A stretch of 46,474 nucleotides of DNA from Actinocrinis puniceicyclus (GTDB lineage: Bacteria; Actinomycetota; Actinomycetes; Streptomycetales; Catenulisporaceae). The position numbers and the translations under genes are program-made. The DNA is taken from positions 1-46,474 of the forward strand of contig NZ_JAGSXH010000044.1 in assembly GCF_018283645.1 (NCBI RefSeq). The letters are read 5' to 3'. The notes below the pieces were generated by a model. It did no database searches. It was not told the DNA's origin and saw only the letters and a list, made by a program, of their open reading frames with translations. Within the stretch, counting starts at the first letter, position 1. Each line of letters starts with the position of its first letter. Of this stretch, positions 2,939 through 21,880 are shown in pieces.

Positions 2939-2948
2939 GCCTTCAGAG

Positions 2949-3174
2949 GGACGTTTGGTTTGGTTCTGGGGTAGATCGTCACGACAGGTGGACGTTCGAT
3001 TCGCCCGAGAAGTCGGGTACCCGACAGCGAATCGGCCAAGCGGCGGCGCTCGCAAGGCGCCGGAGCGTCCTCGCGGTGTTCGAATTCAACACAGTGGGTC
3101 GTCTGTGGGCGCTTCGGCAACGCAGCGAGCGTCGTCGATCGGCCGATTCGCCCCCAGAATCAGACCAAACGTCC
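2949..3174. mobile_element. Divergent palindromic MITE-like element filling a convergent gap
   Basis: The outer arms are 23 bp (2949-2971 and 3152-3174) and match at 21 positions. Inner arms of 27 bp (3027-3053 and 3125-3151) match at 23 positions and begin GCGAATCGGCC. Between them, 3061-3118 is about 85% identical to the core of the 219-bp element at 21662-21880 (its reverse strand, 21725-21782). A perfect 14-bp palindrome GTCGGGTACCCGAC lies at 3012-3025. Its ends differ from the CTAG-type repeats of the other copies. It occupies almost exactly the space between two convergent stop codons (2938 and 3177). No transposase is encoded. Confidence 0.65.
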
Positions 3175-3176
3175 GC

Positions 3177-4037
3177 TCAGCTCCCGCCCGCGATGGCCGC
3201 GGCGAGAAGCTCGCGCAACCGTCCGGGCGTGTGCCCGGTGTGTTCTCGCACGGTTCTGATGAAGTGCGCCTGGTCGGCGAAGCCGAGGTCCGCGGCCAAT
3301 CCGGCGAGGTCGCGCTCGCCGGCCTCGATCCGCTCCAGCGCGCGGCTGACCCGGGCCCGATTGCGGTAGCGCGTCAGCGAAGTCCCGGTCTCCCGGCGAA
3401 AGACGCGGCTCAGGTGGTAGGGGGAGACCTCGAGCAGCCCGGCCAGAGTGGTCAGGCGGTCGGCGGCGGGGTGCCCGGCGGCGACCGCCTCCCGCGCGCC
3501 GTCGGCCAGAGCCCGCGCCGCATGGCTCGGCACCTGGGCGCGGCGTTGCGCCGCGCCCGACCCGAACACGGGCGCCGAGAGCGCGAGCACGTCCAGAAGC
3601 TGCTCGGGAACGGCGAAGCCGGTATCGCCGCCGGCGATGGCGCGCGCCAGCCGGCGATGCGCCAACTCCAGCCGCCCGTCGACGTGCAGCCACGGCCGCG
3701 ACGGCCGCCCGCCGTCTCCGGCGAGCGACCTCCACCACCGGTCGCTGACGCCGATGGAAGTGCAGACGTCGCCCCCCGCGGGGTGCGCGAACCGCTGCTG
3801 CGCGCCGGGCAGCTGCAGGTAGCCGGTCGTGGGATCGACCACGCCTTCGCGCCCCATCGTGCGCAGCCGGAAGCGGCCGGATCTGACGAGCACGATGCGC
3901 CGGCCGGCGCCCGGTTCGGCCGGAGACCAGCCCGCGTGCTCGTCGCTGCACGTGACCACGCTGATCGCGAACCCGTCGCCTTCGATATGGGCCTTGACGT
4001 ACCGCACGGGAACCACGGTACCGGGGGTCGCCGACAC
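3177..4037 (-). CDS. AraC/XylS family regulator
   Basis: Transcription factor with a ~165-residue N-terminal sensing domain and a C-terminal double helix-turn-helix. The first HTH reads LAGLLEVSPYHLSRVFRRETG and the second DLAGLAADLGFADQAHFIRTVREHTGHTPGRLRE, the classic AraC signature. It is divergent from the MFS exporter, so it probably senses a toxic compound and controls the exporter. The start is uncertain: GTG at 4037 (286 residues) or GTG at 4016 (279 residues); neither has a good Shine-Dalgarno sequence, so a leaderless message is possible. The stop lies next to the end of the palindromic element. Confidence 0.85.
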   Translation of the reverse strand: MSATPGTVVPVRYVKAHIEGDGFAISVVTCSDEHAGWSPAEPGAGRRIVLVRSGRFRLRTMGREGVVDPTTGYLQLPGAQQRFAHPAGGDVCTSIGVSDRWWRSLAGDGGRPSRPWLHVDGRLELAHRRLARAIAGGDTGFAVPEQLLDVLALSAPVFGSGAAQRRAQVPSHAARALADGAREAVAAGHPAADRLTTLAGLLEVSPYHLSRVFRRETGTSLTRYRNRARVSRALERIEAGERDLAGLAADLGFADQAHFIRTVREHTGHTPGRLRELLAAAIAGGS

Positions 4038-4094
4038 GGGCCGCGGGCAAGAATCTTCAATCCGGACCCTGGTGCGCGCGCCGACACTGGCCGG

Positions 4095-7447: not shown

Positions 7448-7536
7448 CTAGGCGGTGTTGGGGAATGTATCAAGGCAACGATTCGACCGCCGCTTTGTCG
7501 GATTCGCCCCTTGAGGCATTCCCCAACACCGCCTAG
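7448..7536. mobile_element. 89-bp CTAG-flanked MITE, deletion derivative
   Basis: The perfect 17-bp terminal repeat GGCGGTGTTGGGGAATG (7451-7467) is inverted at 7517-7533. The repeat extends imperfectly to about 25 bp. CTAG stands at both ends (7448-7451 and 7533-7536). The sequence is identical to the two ends of the 219-bp element at 21662-21880 (reverse orientation), with 130 bp missing between two copies of CGGA. The last CTAG supplies the TAG stop of the cupin gene. No coding capacity; a parental transposase would have to act in trans. Confidence 0.85.
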
Positions 7537-21452: not shown

Positions 21453-21629
21453 ATGGCATTGACGAGCGTGTCAGCCAGGATTCGACGAGGTGCCGGCGTA
21501 CGCCTCGCTGCCGTTCTCGCAGCCGGCTCCCTCAGCGCCGCCGTGTTCCCGCTCACCCCTGCGCCGCCGCGTCGGGTGGGGAGTGTGTCCGGGCCGAGTG
21601 GTCTACACCTCCCCGGCGCGGGACACTAG
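21453..21629 (+). CDS. 58-residue secreted peptide or truncated exported protein
   Basis: ATG 21453 has GAAAGG 8 bases ahead. The peptide has an arginine-rich n-region (RIRRGAGVR), a hydrophobic core (LAAVLAAGSLSAAVFPL), a Pro-rich site likely to be the cleavage region, and then only ~20 residues ending PGAGH. The TAG stop is part of the CTAG at 21626-21629 that begins the mobile-repeat cluster. It may be a real small secreted peptide, or the 5' remnant of a longer exported protein cut off by the insertion. No homologue recognised. Confidence 0.4.
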   Translation: MALTSVSARIRRGAGVRLAAVLAAGSLSAAVFPLTPAPPRRVGSVSGPSGLHLPGAGH

Positions 21630-21665
21630 GGGCTGTTCGGGGTTCGGATCATGATCAGCCCCTAG
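21626..21665. mobile_element. 40-bp CTAG-flanked hairpin remnant
   Basis: CTAGGGGCTG (21626-21635) is perfectly inverted as CAGCCCCTAG (21656-21665), with a 20-bp spacer. The right CTAG is shared with the 219-bp MITE. It may be a deletion remnant of a second element that uses the same CTAG target, or a terminator for the small secreted ORF. Confidence 0.5.
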
Positions 21666-21880
21666 GCGGTGTTGGGGAATGCCTCAAGGGGCGAATCCGG
21701 TGATTGACTTCGCCTGGACGCACGGCCGAAACGTCCACAGACGACCGCTGTGTTGAATCATGAACGCGCGAGGACGCTCCGGCCGCGCGCCCATGCTCGT
21801 CGCTGACCGGATTCGCCATGACGATTCCGACAAAGCGGCGGTCGAATCGTTGCCTTGATACATTCCCCAACACCGCCTAG
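21662..21880. mobile_element. 219-bp CTAG-flanked MITE, full-length copy
   Basis: The 17-bp terminal repeat GGCGGTGTTGGGGAATG (from 21666) is inverted at the other end (to 21877), with CTAG at both ends (21662-21665 and 21877-21880). Inner inverted arms GCGAATCCGGT lie at 21691-21701 and 21806-21816. The core 21725-21782 is shared with the element at 2949-3174. Its right CTAG supplies the TAG stop of the gene ending at 21877. No transposase is encoded; the CTAG duplication is suggestive of an IS5-like parent (inference). Confidence 0.85.

Follow-up and report, generated by a model that had tools for sequence, protein, structure and literature searches.

The palindromic element at positions 2946 to 3176 of the window (the whole stretch analysed, 46,474 nucleotides of contig NZ_JAGSXH010000044.1 of Actinocrinis puniceicyclus) probably belongs to a modular superfamily of MITE-like elements, in which the palindrome centre has been exchanged between families with unrelated tips. 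As far as this could be tested, the core that these families share records DNA exchange between mobile elements, not a working RNA or protein site. The initial annotation had argued that core and ends behave as separate modules, beyond what a simple single-family MITE predicts, and this holds: tips and bodies reassort, and apex alleles are shared across families.

The window element (L001; plus strand, end family A) is an imperfect palindrome of 231 bp. It was first recognized at 2949-3174, and proved to be a real element with slightly wider limits. The trinucleotide TCA flanks it on both sides (2943-2945 and 3177-3179), in agreement with the reported absence of CTAG; as other family A copies are flanked by TAA/TTA or TCA, the target of this family is TNA. 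The ends, GAGGRCGTTTGGTYTGGTTYTGGGG, are imperfect inverted repeats of ~25 bp, the left at 2946-2971 on the plus strand and the right at 3152-3176 on the minus strand, with an inverted match of 91% over 23 bp between 2949-2971 and 3152-3174. Further inside sits a module running from GCGAATC to GATTCGC (3027-3151), closed by a 27-bp inner inverted repeat (3027-3053 and 3125-3151). The shared core occupies 3061-3118, within the segment 3034-3140 spanned by covariance model R1. At the apex, the element carries an allele termed LONG, with the segment GCGGTGTTCGAATTCAACACAGT at 3073-3095, where most family A copies have an ATACC-type sequence instead. The CACAG/CTGTG hairpin described initially does exist (3090-3107), with a spacer of 8 nt in this element (TGGGTCGT) and 7 nt in its partner instead of the 6 or 7 nt first given. 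It is limited to the LONG allele and missing from the short one, most family A copies carrying CATACCGGGTTGTCTG. A minus-strand reading frame (3160-4050) enters the element from the right and takes its stop codon TGA (3160-3162) from the element tip; it has no Pfam or NCBIfam match.

The partner is a family B element on the minus strand (L031; 21666-21876), which has the common core and CTAG duplications. Its core (21725-21782) is 86% identical to that of the window element over ~58 bp with short gaps, the inner arms GCGAATCGG and GCGAATCCGG are found in the two elements, and the outer ends are unrelated, all as originally described. A longer match between 3059-3154 and 21688-21783 has an E value of 6e-11 when the whole 6.77-Mb genome is searched, and is thus not due to chance. 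The genome is a draft of 430 contigs, and short repeats can be mis-joined, but it is barely credible that the shared core arose from assembly or chance: beyond this E value, the apex of the window element carries private bases, and a genome assembled as a single contig likewise contains the core, its alleles and a chimera. Sequence searches of the window also revealed a family B element lacking the core (7448-7536, plus strand). Adjoining the partner, at 21610-21668, CTAG sites enclose a mini palindrome of ~32 bp (GGGCTGATCATGATCCGAACCCCGAACAGCCC), and after it comes a fragment similar to the family C tip.

DNA searches of the window's genome (G000) revealed dozens of core copies with differing ends. 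An exact pattern scan of GTDB contigs, using a pattern tuned to this genome, gave no matches; a covariance model of the core, built from 15 copies, later found relatives. This search, proposed in the initial annotation, yielded 53 matches in the window's genome, and 27, 19 and 28 in three genomes of the sister genus Actinospica, in addition to two weak matches in one genome of a third genus (G008). The sister genus is represented by A. acidithermotolerans MGRD01-02 (G001), A. durhamensis CSCA 57 (G005) and a single-contig genome of 9.9 Mb labelled Actinospica (G003). The window's genome and the three Actinospica genomes together yielded 124 distinct elements or fragments with the core, and two more were recognized by eye in G008. 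Tip classes were assigned by pattern and checked by eye, automatic end detection having succeeded for most, not all, elements. The core is present under at least eight end classes (A, B, C, D, G, H and K, plus J by eye), among which class K has one copy, class J has two copies, both read by eye in G008, and class D comprises five tip variants on an identical arm type. The initial suggestion of a captured module comes close to the data.

These elements share the usual features of MITEs. They are ~160-230 bp long, gene-less and present in many copies; of the first 18 bases, 17-18 are paired in the other copies of family A, and 14-18 in most copies of the other families. Target duplications are TNA for family A and CTAG for most copies of B, C, D, G and H. 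With respect to neighbouring genes, 18 lie in convergent, 42 in tandem and 4 in divergent contexts, a distribution that is usual for intergenic repeats and non-diagnostic.

Core-less relatives occur in three families: ~16 true loci of family B, including the diverged copies L253-L256, two copies of family C (L116 and L122) and three class D minis (L271, L274 and L283). The old core-less form suggested by the diverged family B copies would suit a core that is itself a second, smaller MITE inserted into several outer MITEs. So would the sharp boundary GCGAAWCGG...CCGWTTCGC, which the window element has in common with tip families B, G, H, J and K, making six with family A. Nevertheless, we consider such nesting highly improbable. 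Reading by eye revealed no target duplication at the module edges in A, B, G, H and K, the core-less junction in family B falls inside the module and not at its edges, and no module was seen standing free of outer ends. Moreover, deletion between short repeats yields an identical core-less product, and nesting leaves unexplained both the tip-body reassortment and the apex alleles inside fixed arms.

Several observations speak for exchange of the centre between families. The LONG and short apex alleles cut across tip families: in the window's genome, LONG and short copies number 1 and 5 in family A, 5 and 3 in B, 19 and 3 in C, and 1 each in D, and no LONG allele was seen in the Actinospica genomes. 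G003 likewise has two apex alleles, each present in both C and D. Four separate origins of one 21-bp replacement are improbable, so allele sharing across tip families counts for exchange. Whole bodies reassort as well. Class D elements of A. durhamensis have two tip variants, and their 126-bp bodies differ by a mean of 3.10 bases between tip classes, compared to 2.83 and 2.89 within them; bodies with zero differences occur under different tips, and five of the seven informative body sites display all four combinations with tip class. Exchange is not universal, since the two tip classes of A. acidithermotolerans keep distinct bodies, with none of 15 body sites mixed.

Individual copies preserve the products of such events. 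Around the apex, the family C copy L159 is almost identical to family A for ~57 bp, and the similarity falls to background outside. Chimeras in the draft genome join B to C (L041) and C to E (L021 and L086). With 430 contigs, these could include assembly errors; however, a C/D chimera with a different tip class on each side (L203) lies in the single-contig genome G003. Identity values follow the same division between centre and arms: the loop is 0.90 identical between families within one genome and 0.86 within one family across genomes, compared to 0.57 and 0.95 for the arms.

Several further copies have unusual ends or apices. In L021 (contig C77) and L086 (contig C344) of the window's genome, one family C end is replaced by the CTAG-flanked sequence GGCCACTCTGTCGTCCGAGTTC, and the two junctions differ. 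The family C copy L015 (contig C221) has TTAGTGTCCCGTCACGGCGGCAATG as its other end, and only the outermost TGTCCCG is in common with the usual tip. Family B and C elements adjoin each other in the pairs L034/L014 (contig C244) and L037/L010 (contig C1), with one CTAG-like site in common, a configuration that could give rise to chimeras via recombination between the two cores. A degenerate core copy (L250, contig C88) contains at its apex three tandem copies of the 14-bp unit GACACGGTCAATGC, which suggests slippage at this point. In G003, the apex of L207 is enlarged by CTCGCC-like repeats, a sign of a mutable apex.

The initial annotation had also proposed that the core may be a functional RNA or a protein-binding site, a claim that the data do not support. 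It had named equal decay of core and ends as the observation that would speak against its proposal, and such decay was found within family C, where nucleotide diversity is 0.0248 in the core and 0.0218 in the rest (permutation P = 0.61; right-tip values, which include host flank, were left out). Core-less copies persist in families B, C and D, and no Rfam family matches the window element at the cut-off; elsewhere, Rfam gave one sub-threshold match, to a viral miRNA family. Equal decay and core-less copies, together with the shared alleles, identical bodies and chimeras, suggest that the core is shuffled and not under special constraint.

In a broader form of this proposal, selection keeps a 16-nt loop and its covarying stem amid change, because they act as a functional RNA or as a hairpin or cruciform site for a protein. 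Between different families in different genomes, the loop retains an identity of 0.81, whereas stem (0.53) and arms (0.57) are near background, a degree of conservation that also suits functional constraint, and the loop is still recognizable in the third genus. In addition, the compensatory stem changes sought in the initial annotation are abundant: 13 of the 17 stem pairs display double changes, more than in any of the 500 shuffles or any slid control. Among copies of one family in one genome, however, conservation is lower in the loop (0.93) than in the arms (0.97), and the loop tolerates the 21-bp replacement and further changes. The covariation itself is undecisive for RNA, since arm copying at the DNA level can mimic it. 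The right arm of L206 reproduces the element's own left arm as an exact reverse complement over 28 bp, down to a variant seen in just two of the ten G003 copies, and template switching has been reported to create and maintain hairpins (PMC8794818). Combined with the equal decay and the core-less copies described above, these points make a selected hairpin rather unlikely. More specifically, the loop might be read by a common host or transposon protein, or serve an RNA role, so that tips change while the hairpin is kept; this version appears distinctly unlikely. If it were true, loop-bearing palindromes would be adoptable by transposases of different specificity.

Based on the reading that we favour, exchange of the palindrome centre, we propose that these elements would be non-autonomous, MITE-like long imperfect palindromes built of three layers: tips recognized by a transposase, arms specific to each family, and a centre that the families share. 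This centre, or at times the entire body, would be swapped between differently tipped elements of one genome via short conversion-like or template-switch events, after which arm copying would restore pairing and symmetry. One observation speaks against this reading: in G003, C and D have a common loop allele, and the adjacent stem differs, making the shared tract too short for ordinary homologous recombination. Exchange might start at the hairpin apex, for instance after cleavage or fork stalling. Several truncated copies break off close to the apex (model positions 36-40 or 54-64), but matches to SbcD, a candidate hairpin nuclease, are partial and under the curated cut-off. In this way, families with unrelated tips would keep a common core, and the tips would track whichever transposases are present.

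The tips themselves may depend on IS5-type transposases acting in trans. In A. acidithermotolerans, a 1,033-bp CTAG-flanked element is bounded by the class D tip CTAGGCCGTGTCTTCAAA and contains a transposase gene; the gene matches an NCBIfam IS5-family transposase model (3e-74), as well as Pfam DUF4096 and DDE_Tnp_1. Ends matching a transposon were thus seen for class D tips, and the shared ends suggest that this transposase may move the MITE-like elements. Among the PF01609 loci of the window's genome, no transposon bearing the family A tip was found.

Many of these ingredients are already known, namely MITEs, IS5-type ends, quasipalindrome correction and chimeric foldback-like elements such as Galileo (PMC3573991). 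The present elements resemble IS5-derived prokaryotic MITEs in that they are short, have no transposase gene, and possess inverted ends, CTAG or TNA duplications and many copies, besides the class D tips that match an IS5-family transposon. They differ in having at least eight tip classes around one centre, and a keyword search in a review of prokaryotic MITEs gave no reference to chimeric elements or to a common centre (PMC10969869). A parallel in chimerism is Galileo of Drosophila, which has chimeric copies whose two ends stem from different subfamilies, as well as copies in which the ends of one subfamily surround the interior of another, both explained by its authors through ectopic recombination and conversion (PMC3573991). 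However, Galileo is eukaryotic, with long terminal repeats and related subfamilies, whereas the elements here are bacterial, 160-230 bp long and have unrelated tips. TIMEs are bacterial Tn3-derived miniature elements, whose conserved core stretches can generate mosaics (PMC4133298). In contrast to the present families, TIMEs have a single end type (Tn3), and their mosaics form by mobilizing DNA between copies, not by placing different tips around one core.

Known palindromic repeats also include the REP/BIME units, which are 20-40 bp long, carry a GTAG or CGTC tag and are linked to RAYT transposases (PMC3733652). Like REP palindromes, the elements described here are intergenic, lie mostly downstream of genes and can fold as RNA, but they measure 160-230 bp and have long inverted ends and short target duplications. 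Finally, template-switch correction of quasipalindromes rewrites one arm of an inverted repeat from its counterpart (PMC7202029, PMC8794818), the same arm copying as in L206. It is a mutational mechanism rather than an element family, and alone swaps no tips.

A limited search of open-licence literature did not find a bacterial MITE superfamily in which unrelated tips reassort around one exchanged centre. The elements provide a natural data set on how gene-less bacterial transposons may change their transposase dependence, through tip-body reassortment, exchange of palindrome centres and arm copying. They also serve as a warning: when palindromes are repeated, compensatory base changes do not necessarily point to a functional RNA.
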